Shown: positions 5,031 to 45,899 of the stretch, in pieces | Layout: each line of letters starts with the position of its first letter | How positions within the stretch are numbered: position 1 is the stretch's first letter | NCBI GenBank assembly: GCA_030649305.1 | Contig: JAUSFV010000010.1 | Span: 1-50,058 of the forward strand | Source of the DNA: a bacterium | Lineage (GTDB): Bacteria; Patescibacteriota; Minisyncoccia; Sungbacterales; GWA2-42-14 | Length of the DNA stretch: 50,058 nt | Direction of reading: 5' to 3' | The notes under the pieces: model-generated | The model's database searches: none | What the model saw: only the letters and a program-made list of their open reading frames with translations | Told to the model about the DNA's origin: nothing | Position numbers and translations under genes: made by a program

Positions 5031-7292
5031 TTACGATTCCTCCATAAGCCGCAACGCGGCCGCCACAACTTCATCAACCTGCGGAAGGCGGATATCTTCA
5101 AGATTCGGATGCACCGGTACCTGCGTATCGGCTGCCGCAAGGCGCACAATTCTCGTCCGTAGGCGATGGAATGTTTGAATCTCCTCGCCGATAGATGCGG
5201 AAAATTCCGCGCCCGCATGAAATGACTTTGACGCCTCGTGCATAATGATAACGCGTCCGGTTTTCTCCACAGAGGCAAAAACGGTTTCTTTGTCCCACGG
5301 CTTAATCGTCCGAAGATCAATAACCTCAAGCGATACGCCTCGTTTTTCAAGCTCTTCGGCTGCCGCAAGCGCGCATTTCAGCATGAGGGCGCCATAGGTT
5401 ACGAGAGTCGCGTCTGATCCCGCGCGACGAACCAAAGCTACGCCAAGCGGGATAAAAAATTCTTTTTCAGAAACCCGCTCGCGCATCCCTAATTCGTGAA
5501 TAGGAACGATGATGTAACATGCGTCCGGATCGCGGATTGCTGATTTTACCATACCGATCATGTCTGCTACCGTTGCGGGTTCCAAAACTTTCATGCCGGG
5601 AAGCGCCGCAAAATCAATTTCAATACGAGCCGAATGAGAATTATTACTCGAAGGAACCTTACCGCCGGGCCCTACGAACGTCACGTTTGCTCCTCGACCC
5701 GTACGCGTGGCAACGGTTGGCACGTAGTTAGAAAATATTTCTCCGGCCGATCGTGTAAACTGAAGGAACTGAAATTCCATACATACGGGATATCCGAACA
5801 TCCCCGATCCTACGGCGTGCCCCGTACCCGCAGACTCGGCAATCGGCATATTCCGAACTTGTTTTGGAAACTCTTTGGAAAGACCAAGCGTTAAACCCAA
5901 AACGCCGCCCTTCGGATCCGCAACGTCTTCTCCGTAATAACGAAAGAGTTCGTTCGCGCCAAGTTCCTCCCGGATCGCTCGCCGGTAAGCCTCACGAAGC
6001 GTGTATTCTTGTGTCGGCTCCGCAAGCGGAAAACGAACCGCAAGCTCTTTGCTGATACGGCACTCGGGGTCTATCAACGCCACCGTAAGATTGTTACGAT
6101 CACGCGCCGGATCTTCTGCCCGCAATGCCGCATCATACGCGCCCCCCACCTCGTTATGCGCCCCCGCGATTTCCTTTTCTACGGCGACAGCATCAAGAAT
6201 GCCGCACGCAACAAGCTCCGTACGAATCTGCGCGAGAGGGTCGTGTTTCTTTTTTGAATATTCCCGAAATGTATCTAGTCCGTATACTTCCTCCGCATAT
6301 TTCGTATCTTCAATCAAATTGTGTCCTTCTTTCCGAAACGCGCCGACCTTCATAAAAGAAGGGTGCGATGTCCTTCTGGAAAACATAAGGAGCCAATGGT
6401 TTACCAAATACGTAAGAACGGCATCTCTGCCATCTACGGGAATACCCGGCATCTCATAGCCAACCGCGCGATTTACAAGATCAATCCCGCCATGCTGTTC
6501 TTTCGACGGAACCGAAAGCGCAATCTCGTTATCGTGGCAGACAAAAAGCGCTCCGATGTTCCATGCCTTCGCGAGATTCATACCCTCATGCACAACACCG
6601 TTTGACGCAGCTCCATCGCCGAAAATCGTAACCGCGGCAATCCGCTCATCGGGCAAAAGTTCACGCCCAAGTTTTTTTGCCTTCTCCCACATCGCGGGAA
6701 TTACGGGACCCGGACCGATACACGCGGAAATCCCCATGGTGGAAATCCCGAATCCGAAATTATGATGCTCGAGGTCGGAGAAATGAATATTACCCTCATG
6801 TCCCCGCGTTGGACCGTCTTTCTTGCAGAGATGATTCATCCATGCGTCATACAAAATTTTTCGCAGGCTCGCGCCGCGCACCTCTATACGGTCCTCGTTC
6901 ATCACCACGTAAAAACTAAAACTGCGATGATCGGGATACCCGTAATCATCCGGCCGCATGGTACGACCCGCGGCAACTCCCGCAACTTCCTGCCAATGGC
7001 CGGAAAAGGCGGGGCCCGGAATCGTCCCGTCGCCCGTCTTGCTCAAATGTTTTTTGATTTCGTCAAAAAACACGCGCGTCAAAAGAATATCCTTATAGAG
7101 CTGGATAAAAAGTGAAACGGGAAAATGTTCGCCACGATACAGCGCCTCGTCGTAAGCGCGCCGCAACTCATCCATGAGCGCTGTACCGCGCCATGATTTA
7201 TACATAGGAATCAATAATTCGCATCGACCCCACGCCGTCCGAAAATATTCCCGCCGCGCATCAGTCAGAAGATTAACCGTTTCCTGTATCAT
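5031..7292 (-). CDS. 2-oxoacid dehydrogenase E1, alpha and beta subunits fused
   Basis: About 753 residues. This thiamine-diphosphate enzyme decarboxylates a 2-oxoacid and reductively acylates E2. The first half is E1-alpha like, with the TPP motif GDGAASNG and the following conserved Asn (MNLAKAWN). The second half is E1-beta like (YYGEDVADPKGG, then PIAESAGTGHAVG and the C-terminal VIDLRTIKPWD). Fused forms are known for branched-chain and related 2-oxoacid dehydrogenases, so pyruvate is not assured as substrate. Start choice: ATG 7292 has GGAG six bases upstream; an in-frame TTG at 7325 with AGGAG eight bases upstream is an equally credible alternative adding 11 residues. It is followed one base later by E2. 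Confidence 0.9.
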   Translation of the reverse strand: MIQETVNLLTDARREYFRTAWGRCELLIPMYKSWRGTALMDELRRAYDEALYRGEHFPVSLFIQLYKDILLTRVFFDEIKKHLSKTGDGTIPGPAFSGHWQEVAGVAAGRTMRPDDYGYPDHRSFSFYVVMNEDRIEVRGASLRKILYDAWMNHLCKKDGPTRGHEGNIHFSDLEHHNFGFGISTMGISACIGPGPVIPAMWEKAKKLGRELLPDERIAAVTIFGDGAASNGVVHEGMNLAKAWNIGALFVCHDNEIALSVPSKEQHGGIDLVNRAVGYEMPGIPVDGRDAVLTYLVNHWLLMFSRRTSHPSFMKVGAFRKEGHNLIEDTKYAEEVYGLDTFREYSKKKHDPLAQIRTELVACGILDAVAVEKEIAGAHNEVGGAYDAALRAEDPARDRNNLTVALIDPECRISKELAVRFPLAEPTQEYTLREAYRRAIREELGANELFRYYGEDVADPKGGVLGLTLGLSKEFPKQVRNMPIAESAGTGHAVGSGMFGYPVCMEFQFLQFTRSAGEIFSNYVPTVATRTGRGANVTFVGPGGKVPSSNNSHSARIEIDFAALPGMKVLEPATVADMIGMVKSAIRDPDACYIIVPIHELGMRERVSEKEFFIPLGVALVRRAGSDATLVTYGALMLKCALAAAEELEKRGVSLEVIDLRTIKPWDKETVFASVEKTGRVIIMHEASKSFHAGAEFSASIGEEIQTFHRLRTRIVRLAAADTQVPVHPNLEDIRLPQVDEVVAAALRLMEES

Positions 7293-19074: not shown

Positions 19075-21774
19075 CTATAACTCCGCCCACGTCTTTCCCT
19101 CATGCGCGTCCACCGGAAACGGAACCGCGCCCTCAAAGCACGATTCCATAATTTTTTTAATTTCTGTTTTATAATGTTCTGATTTTTCTTCGCGCGCCTC
19201 AAAAATAAGTTCATCATGCACCTGCAAAAGCATCCGCAAATCCCCGCGCTTAAAATCTTCGGCAAACGCGGCCCAAATCCGTATCATGGCGCGCTTCAAA
19301 ATGTCCGCCGCCGTTCCCTGAATCGGCGCGTTTACCGCCATGCGCTCGGCTTCCGCCACTTCACGAAACCCGCCGGAAAAAAGCTGGGGCAAATACCGCC
19401 GCCTGCCGAATGCCGTCTCCACATACCCCTCGATGCGGGCTTTTTCTTTTGTCTCTGCAATATAATTCGCAATGCCCGAAAAATCGCTGAAATATTCGGA
19501 AAAAAACTTTTTTGCCTGTTCAAGCGGAATACCCGCACTCTCCGCAAACGAACGCACGCCCATGCCATAGAGAATTCCGAAGTTAAGCGCTTTTGCCGCA
19601 CGGCGCATCTCGGGCGTTACCTTTTCAATCGTCGTATCATTCACTTCCGCCGCGGTAAGCGTATGAATATCCATCCCGCGCGTGAACGCGTCAATCATCT
19701 TTTTGTCTCCCGCTAAATGTGCCGCAATCCGCAATTCCAATTGCGAATAATCAAACGCAAGAAAAGAAAAACCTTTTTCCGCAACAAACGCGGCGCGAAT
19801 TTCTTTGCCGCGCAGAGTTTTCGTAGGAATATTCTGTACATTGGGGTCAGATGAAGAAAGGCGCCCCGTAACGGTTCCTGTCTGGTGGAATGTCGTATGA
19901 ATTCTCCCGCCCAAGTCAACAAGCTTCGGAAGCGCCTCAATATACGTACTCTGTAGCTTTGCAAGTTCCCGATATTCAATAAGGAACGGAATGATGGGAT
20001 GTTCTTTCTGCATACGCGAAAGCTGGTCAATGTTGGTAGAAAGGCGTCCCGTTCCGGTTTTTTTTATGCGGGCACTCTTGCCAAGGCCAAGTTTCGTAAA
20101 AAGAATTTCCGAGAGCTGTTGCGAAGAATTGATATTAAATGATTCGCCGGCGTTCTTGTATATTTTTTCTTCAAGAATGCCTATCTCTTTTTTGGTTTTT
20201 TGCGAAAGTTTTAAAAGATACCCCGTATCAATCCCAATGCCCCAACGCTCCATTGCGGCAAGAATCACAGGAAGAGGCATTTCAAATTCTTCAAATATCC
20301 GGAGAAGCTGATTTTTTTCAAGATCATCTCGAAGGCGTCGGGCAATGCGCGGGAGAAGTGCAAGCAGGTCGCCCGTGCTTATATCAGCCACATCTTTTTG
20401 TAAAAACCACGACACAAGTTTTCCAAGCGAATAATCGCGCCTTCCGGGGTCTGCGATAAACCAAGCGAGCTTGCAATCAAAAAATGTTCCCCACCCCTCC
20501 GCAAACGGAGCTAATTTCAAAAACGCCTTAAGATCGTGCGTGATAAGGTCAACGCCTTTTGTCGCTGTAAAAAAATCTTCCGCCTCGCGGGAACGCAATA
20601 ATTTTTCCGGCACAGCGAAAAATTCCGAAGATCCCTCGGGCCTAAAGCCCGACCTAGTCCGACCGCGGACGGTCTCGGATGGCTCGGCCGTGTAGGGCAG
20701 AATAAAAAACGTTTTTGACGCCTCATCAAAAAGAAACGCGAGCCGCGTGCCGCGCAAGGAAGATACAGGAAGAAGATGCCAATCTTTGCCATTCGTAATT
20801 TTCACTTCTTTTTGTTTCGGCGCCTCCGTTTCTTTTTCAAAAAGCGTCGCCGGCCCCGGCGCTGTTCGCGTCTGTTCGTTTTCTGTTCGTGGCTGTTCGT
20901 GTAAACGTTTCAGAAAGCTCGAAAAGCCAAATTTTTCAAAAATAGGTTCGAGTTTGTCTTTATGAGATTGCATCCCCCGCCATTCGCCCTCTTCAAGCGT
21001 TACGGAAACGGGAGCGTCCCGCGCAATAAGCGCAAGTTCTTTTGAAATACGCGCGTTTTCTTCCCCCTCTTCAAGTTTTTTTCGTACAGAATCGGAAAAT
21101 GAAAATGCGCCCCTTTTTTTAAGAGCTTTGTAGGTATTTTCAACAGAGCCATATTTTTGCAAAAGTTCTGTTGCAATTTTTTCGCCAATTCCTTTAACTC
21201 CGGGGATATTATCCGAGGGGTCGCCCCGGAGCCCCTTATAATCCACAAGCATCTCGGGCCCGAAGCCAAACCGTTCGCGCACGGCTTTTTCATCATATAA
21301 AATCGTATCCGAAATGCCCTTTTTTAGGGTAAACACGGACACGCGCGGCCGCACGAGCTGGAGCGCGTCCAAATCGCCCGACACAATAACAACTTCATAA
21401 TCTTTCTTTTTTGAAAAACTTTCCGCGAGCGTCCCAATAACATCATCCGCCTCATACCCTTCTTTTTGAATGACCGGAATGCCAAATGCCTCAAGAATTT
21501 CGCGCACCATGGGAATTTGTGTGATAAGTTCATCCGGCGCTTTGGGGCGATGGGCCTTGTAGCGCTCATACGCAATATGGCGGAACGTTGGGCCCGGCAA
21601 GTCAAAGGCAGCAAACACAAAATCGGGTTCTAATTCCCCGAGCATTTTCAGAAGCATAGAGGTAAAACCGTATGCCGCCTGGCTTGGTTTGCCGTCGGGA
21701 GTGCGCAAACCCGGCAGCGCATGAAAGGCGCGATGGATAAGAGAATGGGAATCAATTAAGATAATGCGCTTCAC
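19075..21774 (-). CDS. polA: DNA polymerase I, start codon replaced by a mobile element
   Basis: 899 residues. The 5'-3' exonuclease domain begins VKRIILIDSHSLIHRAFHAL (family: MKKLLLIDGHSLxYRAF) and includes the helix-hairpin-helix GVKGIGEKIA; the 3'-5' exonuclease-like middle lacks the first DxE pair and is probably inactive for proofreading; the polymerase has motif A FDYSQLELRIAAH and motif C QVHDELIFE. The frame is open 26 codons further upstream, but those residues are encoded by the MITE. The start is GTG 21774, whose first G is the last base of MITE copy 2. Two in-frame repeat insertions occur: HEQPRTENEQTRTAP, encoded by GTTCG words, and ETVRGRTRSGFRPEG, encoded by a hairpin. Confidence 0.95.
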   Translation of the reverse strand: MKRIILIDSHSLIHRAFHALPGLRTPDGKPSQAAYGFTSMLLKMLGELEPDFVFAAFDLPGPTFRHIAYERYKAHRPKAPDELITQIPMVREILEAFGIPVIQKEGYEADDVIGTLAESFSKKKDYEVVIVSGDLDALQLVRPRVSVFTLKKGISDTILYDEKAVRERFGFGPEMLVDYKGLRGDPSDNIPGVKGIGEKIATELLQKYGSVENTYKALKKRGAFSFSDSVRKKLEEGEENARISKELALIARDAPVSVTLEEGEWRGMQSHKDKLEPIFEKFGFSSFLKRLHEQPRTENEQTRTAPGPATLFEKETEAPKQKEVKITNGKDWHLLPVSSLRGTRLAFLFDEASKTFFILPYTAEPSETVRGRTRSGFRPEGSSEFFAVPEKLLRSREAEDFFTATKGVDLITHDLKAFLKLAPFAEGWGTFFDCKLAWFIADPGRRDYSLGKLVSWFLQKDVADISTGDLLALLPRIARRLRDDLEKNQLLRIFEEFEMPLPVILAAMERWGIGIDTGYLLKLSQKTKKEIGILEEKIYKNAGESFNINSSQQLSEILFTKLGLGKSARIKKTGTGRLSTNIDQLSRMQKEHPIIPFLIEYRELAKLQSTYIEALPKLVDLGGRIHTTFHQTGTVTGRLSSSDPNVQNIPTKTLRGKEIRAAFVAEKGFSFLAFDYSQLELRIAAHLAGDKKMIDAFTRGMDIHTLTAAEVNDTTIEKVTPEMRRAAKALNFGILYGMGVRSFAESAGIPLEQAKKFFSEYFSDFSGIANYIAETKEKARIEGYVETAFGRRRYLPQLFSGGFREVAEAERMAVNAPIQGTAADILKRAMIRIWAAFAEDFKRGDLRMLLQVHDELIFEAREEKSEHYKTEIKKIMESCFEGAVPFPVDAHEGKTWAEL
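20634..20692. repeat. Hairpin insertion within polA
   Basis: Contains GTCCG-ACCG-CGGAC (20657-20670) preceded by CCTA, plus CGGGCCTAAAGCCCG. It encodes about 15 extra residues in the degenerate exonuclease-like domain. The ACCG-loop hairpin matches the one within uvrB, with a different stem. Confidence 0.65.
20866..20916. repeat. GTTCGCGTCTGTTCGTG words within polA
   Basis: Tandem TGTTCG(C/T)G words, encoding QPRTENEQTRTA on the minus strand in the linker after the 5' nuclease domain. The same words occur at the yidC-khpB junction (39604-39702) and inside a T4SS gene (47974-48022), where they encode HEQTRTADTNRREQ. Confidence 0.65.
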
Positions 21775-21872
21775 CCCGTTAGAAATCACCTTTATATGAC
21801 TGGGACCAGCCAATTTCAGATGACAAAACTTAATGCGATAAACACCCCGCAAACTAAAAATTTCTAACGGGG
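21774..21872. mobile_element. MITE-like element, copy 2, inserted in the polA start codon
   Basis: A 99-bp element with 13-bp inverted repeats CCCCGTTAGAAAT (21774-21786) and complement (21860-21872), flanked by TTCA on both sides (21770-21773 and 21873-21876). Removing the element and one TTCA restores ATGAAG..., an ATG start for polA overlapping the tsaE TGA by four bases. On the minus strand CTGAAA, 17 bases and TATAAA (21791-21819) form a promoter-like pair pointing at polA. The interior is about 75 percent similar to copy 1 by eye. Confidence 0.85.
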
Positions 21873-21873
21873 T

Positions 21874-22314
21874 TCATAAAACTTTTAACTTTCGTTCGTT
21901 AGATTTTTTTCCATGATGAAAAGAAATGCGAACAATGCTTTTGGGTAATATTTTTTTAATCCTCTCCGCCCATTCAATCACAACGATACTGTGCGGGTCT
22001 TTAAAAATTTCTTTAACGCCGAGGTGTAAAAGTTCTTTCGACGACTTAATCCGATAACAATCAATATGAACAAGGTGCCGCGCTTTGCCGAATGGATACA
22101 CGTTCATCAACACGAATGTCGGACTTTTCGGAATATCTTTAATACCAAGCCCCCGTGCAAATCCCTGTGCGAACGTAGTTTTTCCCGAACCGAGATTTCC
22201 TTCAAGCGCTACGACAAACGCCCCCGTTTTGTGGGGGGTTTTTTTGATTTCCTTGGCAAGGGCGGAGGCGATGTTTTTTGTTTGAGAAGCGCTGTGGGTA
22301 GTGATTTCAATCAT
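21874..22314 (-). CDS. tsaE: tRNA t6A37 threonylcarbamoyladenosine biosynthesis ATPase TsaE
   Basis: 146 residues. ATPase that drives the TsaBDE complex making t6A on ANN-decoding tRNAs. Walker A GNLGSGKTTF, then SPTFVLMNVYP and HIDCYRI (family SPTFxLxNxY and HxDxYR) and IVVIEWAERI (family VxxIEWxE). Open frame extends upstream but through repeat words; ATG 22314 gives the family N terminus. Its TGA stop formed an ATGA overlap with polA before the MITE inserted, so the two were an operon. Confidence 0.92.
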   Translation of the reverse strand: MIEITTHSASQTKNIASALAKEIKKTPHKTGAFVVALEGNLGSGKTTFAQGFARGLGIKDIPKSPTFVLMNVYPFGKARHLVHIDCYRIKSSKELLHLGVKEIFKDPHSIVVIEWAERIKKILPKSIVRISFHHGKKSNERKLKVL

Positions 22315-31045: not shown

Positions 31046-32218
31046 TTACGCAACCCGAAATATTTTCCGTTTCCCGACTTTTATAATATCGCCGGAAGCT
31101 ATTGCTATCTCCGCGTATGCGTCTTTCAACACTTGTTGGTTAATTTCAACGGCTCCCGGTATGATGAGGCGCCTTGCTTCACTCTTAGATAACGCAAACC
31201 CAACCTCAAGAAGAAGCTCGGGGAGTGTATATGTTTTTTTCTTTAAACGGCGCGAAGGAATATTTGAAAGATCTTTTTTAGAAAAAAGCTTTACAAAATT
31301 TTCGCAGGCTCGGCGCGCTTTTTCTTTTCCGTGATACAGGCCCGCAACGCGCTCTGCCAATTCAAGCTTCAAATCCCGTGGATTCTTACTGTCCTTGGGG
31401 TCCCACCGAGGAAGTTCATCAACGGGGACAAAAGCGGCAAGCTCTGCGTAATGGAATATAAGAGAATCAGGAATAGACATAATTTTTCCGACCATCTCGT
31501 CAGCGCTGTCGGTAAGAGCAATATAATTCCCGAGTGACTTTGACATTTTGTGCTTCCCGTCAAGTCCGATAAGGAGCGGGAGGAGCACCAAATCCTGCTC
31601 CGGATACCCTATCTTTTTTTGCAATTCGCGCCCCGCAAGCAAGTTTAATTTCTGATCCATGCCGCCAAGCTCAACATCGGCGCGCACCGCAACCGAATCG
31701 TATGCCTGCATGATCTGATACAGGGTTTCATGATGTGCCACCTCTTCTCCTTGTTCCAGGCGCCGCTTAAAATCCTCGCGGTCCAAAATGCGGTTCGTGG
31801 AAAAATTTCCGACAACACGAAGAAACTCGGCAAGTTTCATTTTGGAAAACCATTCGCTGTTGTAATGAATTTCCGCCTTTTTCAAATCAATAATCCGGCC
31901 TACTTGTTCAAAGTAGGTTTTGGCGTTTTTTTTGATTTCTGCATCCAAAAGAGGCGGACGCGCTTTTGTTTTGCCGGAGGGGTCACCGATTGCCGCGGTG
32001 TAGTCGCCGATAATAAAAACCGCCGTATGCCCTGCGTCCTGAAATTCACAAAGTTTTCTCAGGACAAGCGCGTGCCCCAAATGCAAATCGGGCGCCGTCG
32101 GATCCGCCCCTAATTTCACCCGAAGTTTTCGACCCGAGGAAAATTTCTTTTCAAGCGAAACCTGATCAATAATTTCTTCGGCAAGCGAAAAAATATCGCC
32201 GTAAAGATTCTTTTTCAC
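31046..32218 (-). CDS. tyrS: Tyrosyl-tRNA synthetase, start codon replaced by a mobile element
   Basis: 390 residues. Class I synthetase: LGADPTAPDLHLGHALVL holds the HIGH-type HLGH (46-49), the signature KHKMSKSLGN is the KMSKS loop, and the C-terminal S4 domain reads LPELLLEVGFALSKSEARRL. The start is GTG 32218, whose first G is the terminal base of MITE copy 3; the remaining TGAAAA comes from the target site. There is no usual Shine-Dalgarno, only the element's own AACGGG. The ancestral start was evidently ATGAAAAAG, still visible as ATGAA at the far end of the element. Confidence 0.95.
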   Translation of the reverse strand: MKKNLYGDIFSLAEEIIDQVSLEKKFSSGRKLRVKLGADPTAPDLHLGHALVLRKLCEFQDAGHTAVFIIGDYTAAIGDPSGKTKARPPLLDAEIKKNAKTYFEQVGRIIDLKKAEIHYNSEWFSKMKLAEFLRVVGNFSTNRILDREDFKRRLEQGEEVAHHETLYQIMQAYDSVAVRADVELGGMDQKLNLLAGRELQKKIGYPEQDLVLLPLLIGLDGKHKMSKSLGNYIALTDSADEMVGKIMSIPDSLIFHYAELAAFVPVDELPRWDPKDSKNPRDLKLELAERVAGLYHGKEKARRACENFVKLFSKKDLSNIPSRRLKKKTYTLPELLLEVGFALSKSEARRLIIPGAVEINQQVLKDAYAEIAIASGDIIKVGKRKIFRVA

Positions 32219-32343
32219 CCCGTTAGAAGTCTGCCGTTATATGGCCAACAACCAATTTCAGACAGACACGACAATAGATATAACCCCGCTTGTTTGATGT
32301 GGAAAAAATTACTAATTTTTTCCACCAAAGACTTCTAACGGGG
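32218..32343. mobile_element. MITE-like element, copy 3, inserted in the tyrS start codon
   Basis: 126 bp with inverted repeats CCCCGTTAGAAGT (32218-32230) and complement (32331-32343), flanked by TTCA (32214-32217 and 32344-32347). It shares TTATATG and CCAATTTCAG boxes with copies 1 and 2, but the right half is longer and includes a private hairpin GGAAAAAATT/AATTTTTTCC. Excision with one TTCA restores ATGAAAAAG. Confidence 0.85.
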
Positions 32344-32417
32344 TTCATACTTCTTCATCATACGGCATTTCGGGTGAATTTGCAAAACATAGAAAATATG
32401 CTATGTTTGTATTACGC

Positions 32418-37747: not shown

Positions 37748-37874
37748 CGCAAACCACCCCAGAGGAAATATTATGAGAACCTCTCTATTATGAATCAGGC
37801 GCGCAAGAACCACTAATCAAAAAAATAGAATAAGCTGTTTATAACATGTTGATATGCTTATGTTTGTTTTTCAG

Positions 37875-37981
37875 CCCCGTTAGAAGTTTAGAACTCCTCG
37901 TCTTAAGAACAATAAAGAGGCAGTTCGGTCGTATTGGATAGATTCTGGATACGTTTATCGTGCGTTTGACTTCTAACGGGG
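37875..37981. mobile_element. MITE-like element, copy 4, in the putative origin region
   Basis: 107 bp with perfect terminal repeats CCCCGTTAGAAGT and complement (37969-37981). The interior is unrelated to copies 1-3 (GAACTCCTCGTCTTAAG, AAAGAGGCAG). Flanks are TTCAG and TCAAC, so the TTCA duplication is imperfect. It lies 42 bases upstream of rpmH. Confidence 0.75.
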
Positions 37982-38022
37982 TCAACTTCCCACTTTTTGT
38001 TTTGTATGGTAATCTAAAAGCT

Positions 38023-45784: not shown

Positions 45785-45795
45785 GCCAATGTTGT

Positions 45796-45892
45796 CCCTG
45801 TTAGATAACGAGGAGCTTGGTGCTTATAACTAAAACAATATTTTTCTTGATATCACAGTAAATCACGAATTTTAAATTTTTATCTAACGGGG
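45796..45892. mobile_element. MITE-like element, copy 5 (divergent)
   Basis: 97 bp; ends CCCTGTTAGATAA and TTATCTAACGGGG form a variant of the same terminal repeat. The interior is unrelated. No TTCA flanks; instead the left flank CAATGTTGT is complementary to the right flank ACAACATTG, which is also the start of structured element copy 2. It is directly upstream of virB4. Confidence 0.55.
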
Positions 45893-45899
45893 CTACAAC

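Follow-up and report, generated by a model that had tools for sequence, protein, structure and literature searches.

In the window analysed here, a 50,058-nucleotide stretch of DNA that forms contig C31 of a host genome assembly of 1.02 Mb and 54 contigs, a 126-bp element at 32218-32343 (minus strand; 32214-32347 with its duplications) interrupts the start codon of tyrS. It very probably represents a non-autonomous, MITE-like family whose copies in Patescibacteria have repeatedly entered start codons after the first base (A|TGAA), re-creating the start. For one subfamily, type (i), start-codon capture is the rule, and it is a recurring way into essential genes without destroying them. The evidence lies in the geometry of the junctions, the target duplications, a nested insertion, an excess of copies at start codons and the reading frames of the captured genes.

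The tyrS element has perfect terminal inverted repeats, CCCCGTTAGAAGTC and GACTTCTAACGGGG, and is flanked by the 4-bp direct repeat TTCA (TGAA on the minus strand). Read on the minus strand from 32348 down, ATGAA (32348-32344) is followed by the 126 bp CCCCGTTAGAAGTC...GACTTCTAACGGGG and then by TGAAAAAGAATCTTTAC; at the upstream junction (ATGAA|CCCC...) the old start survives, and at the downstream junction (...GGGG|TGAA) the element's last G joins TG to give GTG AAA. The coordinates thus bear out the initial annotation, which had described TTCA on both sides, a GTG whose G is donated by the element and a preserved ATGAA. Its further claim that the tyrS insertion mirrors one at polA also holds, as both copies have the same geometry (Table 1).

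Table 1. Positions of the tyrS insertion, its surroundings and the other element copies in the window.
Feature	Position	Strand	Observation
Right target duplication (TGAA, minus)	32214-32217		Identical to 32344-32347; bases 2-5 of the present tyrS frame
MITE-like element, type (i), 126 bp	32218-32343	-	Type (i) profile match E=1.1e-29, the profile including the tyrS copy itself among its sequences
Left target duplication (TGAA, minus)	32344-32347		Within former start ATGAA
Present tyrS start GTG	32216-32218	-	G contributed by element
Former tyrS start ATG	32346-32348	-	Retained at the element's upstream end; orthologue L225 begins ATGAAAAAAGAC
tyrS, tyrosine--tRNA ligase, 390 aa	31046-32218	-	TIGR00234 E=4.1e-98
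Promoter-like TTGCAA-17-TATGAT	32357-32385	-	Consensus match only; 8 nt upstream of former ATG, leaderless geometry
41-codon ORF, former ATG through element	32223-32348	-	Stop 4 nt before GTG
Sister copy at polA start	21770-21876 (element 21774-21872)	-	Left TGA copy doubles as stop of upstream tsaE
Sister copy, GTGAA target, off gene starts	1091-1199 (element 1095-1195)	-	TGAA preceded by G
Further terminal-inverted-repeat element, intergenic	37871-37985 (element 37875-37981)	+	Imperfect duplication TCAG/TCAA
Divergent CCCTGTTAGAT...ATCTAACGGGG element	45792-45896	+	Near start of a minus-strand gene

That the junction GTG is the sole reasonable tyrS start follows from the distance to the HLGH motif: it places 45 codons before HLGH, within the 41-53 seen in orthologues, whereas the next in-frame start leaves only 12. 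The TIGR00234 profile aligns from its position 16 at residue 14. One element-free orthologue (L225) has ATGAAR at the captured residue; the remaining orthologues begin a few codons off and are uninformative on the exact start codon. Among the genomes compared, no close relative shares the tyrS upstream region, so a direct pre-insertion site for tyrS was not obtained. At polA, the profile match starts at residues 1-2, and ATGAA (ATGAAR) stands exactly at the captured position in the majority of orthologues that lack the element. Neither element contains an in-frame ATG, which leaves GTG as the only accessible start at both genes. Insertion into an overlapping stop/start pair (ATGA) was seen to give tsaE and polA each its own codon (21874-21876), and the same duplication occurs at sister loci L041:6284, L052:11425, L144 and L116.

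Copies of the element are dispersed well beyond these two genes. The window contains 7 matches to the 15-mer TTCACCCCGTTAGAA at up to two mismatches, where chance would give 0.19. In the host genome the end sequence is matched at 96 places with at most one mismatch, a reversed control pattern at 21. From 34 stretches taken around such places we read about 33 elements. Scanning 93 relatives, we found the 15-mer TGAACCCCGTTAGAA 47 times in 21 genomes, host included, against 0 for the control. Members of the family have termini CCCCGTTAGAA...TTCTAACGGGG, with inverted repeats of 11-14 bp that are perfect in most copies, are mostly 66-137 bp long, and carry neither a transposase gene nor a conserved ORF; the 41-codon ORF of the tyrS copy is not conserved among other copies. 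The target duplication is constant at 4 bp and varies in sequence from copy to copy, as in MITEs; one nested case reads 5 bp. In a first batch of GTDB genomes, 45 of 82 copies had perfect 4-bp duplications, including TAAA/TTTA, TTGA/TCAA, TGAA/TTCA, TGGA, TATG and CGAG. The nested copy (L034, 4913-5014) lies inside a type (ii) element with CTTCG on both sides, and its host element is intact once one CTTCG is subtracted. This repeat, together with the site-to-site variation, identifies the flanks as target duplications that lie outside the element.

The family falls into subfamilies that differ in their interiors, ends and targets. Type (i), which includes copies 1-3 of the window, is flanked by duplicated TGAA, its 3' half ending in most cases with TATATAA-NGGCAGACTTCTAACGGGG or near it; type (ii) measures 110-111 bp in most copies and duplicates TTGA/TTTA; type (iii) has A/T-rich ends; and type (iv) has TCCC...GGGA ends. 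Among perfect duplications in the host genome, TGAA belongs to type (i) exclusively (Fisher p=1e-5 on hand-entered counts). Elements at L081, L137, L195 and L263, each in a different genome, have in common an internal 3' string near TTTGCGTCTGCGTCCTATTTCTAACGGGG and form a separate subfamily, 3 of 4 at gene starts.

Capture proved to extend far beyond tyrS and polA, as the initial annotation had anticipated, to 14 of the host genome's 16 type (i) copies and to dozens of genes in uncultured relatives. Each of the 14 opens a long ORF at its junction GTG; the genes include pilM, an adenylate kinase-like gene, a CBS/PAS histidine kinase, a NUDIX regulator, DUF427, a copper/thioredoxin protein, glycosyl hydrolase-like proteins, polA, tyrS and others. 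The fifteenth copy has a TATG duplication and retains an ATG ahead of a 60-codon ORF without a Pfam match, and the sixteenth, at 1095, lies away from any gene start. Type (iv) copies re-create ATG itself, at ATGGA and ATGCG. Genes captured across the genomes include rpmJ, rpsQ, secE, tpiA, murD, fmt and scpB, and Pfam or NCBIfam matches begin at residue 1 or 2 in DUF427 and polA (host) and in rpmJ and fmt (other genomes).

The initial annotation had also proposed counting copies that form GTGAA at a start against intergenic TGAA sites, and the count gives a large excess at starts. All 11 ATGAA copies with an intact duplication in the host genome lie at gene starts. Against this, a simple ORF-based gene caller applied to 242 kb of host loci with elements removed placed 51 ATGAA sites at starts and 143 in intergenic sequence (p about 4e-7) and, for TGAA as such, 51 and 466 (p=9e-11), the p-values here being approximate because sampling was gene-proximal and the genomes share ancestry. 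Under a generous definition of starts the background becomes 75 to 97, and 11 of 11 then has an equally approximate p of ~1e-4. Among the 93 relatives, host excluded, 20 ATGAA copies have an intact duplication, and 19 of these lie at starts. A species-wide GTDB scan by inverted repeats alone returned 7 of 7, at rpmJ, rpsQ, tpiA, lepB, murD and two others, the rpmJ and lepB starts having been overlooked by the simple gene caller and assigned via protein families.

Some copies lie at stop codons and leave the stop intact (TAA|A, TGA). In the species-wide set, TAAA copies number 7 at stops and 15 in intergenic sequence against a background of 185 and 2726, an excess at stop sites. Insertions within gene interiors are rare and mostly in frame; from the start, stop and in-frame placements together, the family tends to gene edges or in-frame sites. 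Stop-codon (TAA|A) elements were noted at GTDB loci L099, L103, L118, L119, L120, L148 and L175. A type (ii) element lies in frame within atpG (ATP synthase gamma; L037:4387-4496, contig C25 of host genome G000), where it adds about 38 residues and Pfam ATP-synt matches fall in two stretches. A gene for a 777-aa DsbD-like membrane protein carries two elements (L038:4321-4443 and 6305-6414): a TCCC...GGGA copy that re-creates ATG and a type (ii) copy that is in frame internally.

The four duplicated bases are not enough to account for the use of starts. The initial annotation held that a preference for TGAA makes ATGAA starts a natural landing site; the excess at starts stands, but TGAA is not sufficient. 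Off starts, TGAA insertions are mostly at GTGAA and almost never at ATGAA, yet intergenic ATGAA is commoner than GTGAA, and we rejected the sequence preference as a sufficient cause on these grounds. The commonest non-start duplication is GTAAA/TTTAC, and off-start insertions suggest a G|TNNA|C preference. Because off-start sites prefer G before TNNA, ATGAA is not favoured per se, though at starts it is the one mostly used; other start insertions duplicate TGGA, TGAG or TATG. Captured starts also differ in promoter context: a -10-like hexamer lies 10-16 nt upstream of the former ATG at 13 of 40 of them against 93 of 681 other starts (rank test p=2e-4), and SD-like motifs are rarer (6 of 40 against 153 of 681), whereas for a -10-like box at -17 to -30 captured and other starts do not differ. 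Such spacing would fit genes transcribed from close to the ATG (leaderless type), and the context may reflect either targeting of promoter-melted DNA or selection.

In the mechanism that we propose, insertion would occur at A|TGAA and the target duplication would return TGAA to the gene. The element's invariant last base (G, or A in the TCCC...GGGA subtype) would then re-create GTG or ATG in the correct frame, leaving the protein unchanged or, when the element holds an in-frame ATG, with a short N-terminal extension; where a start overlaps an upstream stop (ATGA), the duplication would hand each gene its own codon. Mobilisation would be in trans by a DDE-type transposase with a preference for promoter-proximal, leaderless-type starts. 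At tyrS, the ribosome would initiate at GTG, either on a transcript that begins within the element, putatively from a TATATAA-like box, or by re-initiation once the 41-codon upstream ORF has been translated. If the whole element were transcribed, its RNA is predicted to fold into a hairpin (-51 kcal/mol, z=-6.3) in which the G of GTG is paired, and this makes either route likelier than read-through initiation. As general mechanisms for keeping captured genes on, two candidates were set aside: translational coupling, excluded for most other copies by element length modulo 3 and early stops, and an element promoter, weakly supported by promoter scans.

Outside the host, mostly in Patescibacteria, an ATG that stays in frame across the terminal repeat (M...SNG-V...) is present in 25 of 44 start copies, but in only 8 of 44 when the opposite strand is read and in 45 of 279 non-start copies and orientations (p=3e-8 for the latter comparison). 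An element can therefore supply the whole start codon, and the initial description of it as non-coding is right for tyrS and polA but not for most start copies elsewhere, which are read into the gene.

The excess at starts could in principle be left by survivor bias, with a transposase that inserts at any TNNA and start sites as the harmless places in a gene-dense genome. We consider this possible but doubtful: it agrees with the high coding density and with the scarcity of insertions in gene interiors, but intergenic ATGAA sites, at least as harmless and outnumbering start ATGAA by ~3:1, hold 0 of 11 copies, and type (i) copies in the host genome are never at TTGA/TAAA, which types (ii) and (iii) do use with the same ends (Fisher p=1e-5 on hand-entered counts). 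Elements might instead be retained at starts for their usefulness, as a portable promoter or start or as a structured leader altering expression of the captured gene. Type (i) start copies are all in the same orientation, most with a TATATAA-like box 18-25 nt before GTG, and the enrichment of in-frame ATGs in start copies of other genomes points the same way. We nonetheless regard retention for usefulness as rather unlikely, given that in-element ATGs show only a weak enrichment of -10 boxes ahead of them (p=0.02), that unrelated housekeeping genes with no common regulon are affected and that the non-start copy at 1095 has the same TATATAA-like box.

A fixed, non-mobile family of cis-regulatory leader RNAs that always precedes these genes, with TGAA as part of the RNA, would account for the strong predicted hairpin and conserved orientation. 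It is highly improbable, and we rejected it: the window has no Rfam match at gathering score, orthologous genes in relatives lack the element, target duplications vary by site, and copies are also found in intergenic sequence, at stop codons, in frame in atpG and nested in each other. Beyond insertion with reconstruction of the start, a broader reading can be offered tentatively, in which this would be a class of transposon directed to transcription or translation starts of mostly leaderless genes, possibly to promoter-melted DNA, with subfamily targets set by the element. It would act as a portable start, with a terminal repeat built to yield a start codon at every insertion, either GTG or ATG at the junction or an in-frame ATG inside the element.

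The nested insertion and the dispersed copies with intact duplications are indirect signs that suggest mobility. Profile searches found neither PF01609 (DDE_Tnp_1) nor PF12762 (IS1595) transposases in the host genome, and PF00665 (rve) matched a single host gene, without the family's ends. The host genome has three Y1 transposase genes; Y1 transposition is not expected to leave target duplications. A long copy with both ends was absent from the fetched loci and not evident among the matches listed for 11 relatives, and two long apparent elements, L122 and L175, were discarded as intervals of ordinary genes with no transposase.

Prokaryotic MITEs resemble this family in their size of about 100 bp, terminal inverted repeats, target duplication, dispersal, lack of a transposase gene and, in some, promoter-like boxes. 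They differ in that here no parent insertion sequence was found among the families and loci searched and placement at start codons is systematic; start codons are not mentioned in a review of prokaryotic MITEs. For 5' fusions the closest precedent is MITEAba12 of Acinetobacter, with three reported insertions that could join residues encoded by the terminal repeat (MQQS) onto the 5' end of an adjacent gene (PMC6382973). Those cases are anecdotal, whereas here dozens of essential genes share a common codon geometry in which the element's last base is codon base 1. Rickettsia palindromic elements, in the account of PMC10969869 citing Ogata 2000, insert internally and in frame in essential genes with the frame kept. 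The type (ii) copies in atpG and the 777-aa membrane protein gene resemble that account; the tyrS/polA class departs from it, taking the place of the start codon without lengthening the protein. REP/REPIN sequences with Y1 transposases (PMC2817692, PMC3116915) are likewise small, palindromic and non-autonomous, and Y1 genes occur in the host. The elements here differ in having duplicated, site-dependent 4-mers, which Y1 transposition would not be expected to produce. Open-access literature searched with the terminal repeat string, alone or with Patescibacteria/CPR, yielded no description.

Entering the start codon and rebuilding it would be a recurring solution for the multiplication of mobile elements in small, gene-dense genomes, and on this account many genes of Patescibacteria should have misannotated starts and unusual GTG codons there. 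The dozens of essential genes that have had their 5' leaders replaced also provide a natural set for learning initiation rules in hard-to-culture organisms, among them leaderless initiation, re-initiation and start-codon strength.

Short palindromes, CCCCGTTAGAT...ATCTAACGGGG, of about 30-40 bp and possibly REP-like, make up a second family, seen at L035:4431-4460, L054:4156-4189, L058:3990-4022, L060:4295-4388 and other sites, some nested in CCCCGTGAGAT.... Single element ends directly adjoin tRNA-like sequences at L036:4936, L044:4585 and L057:4127.
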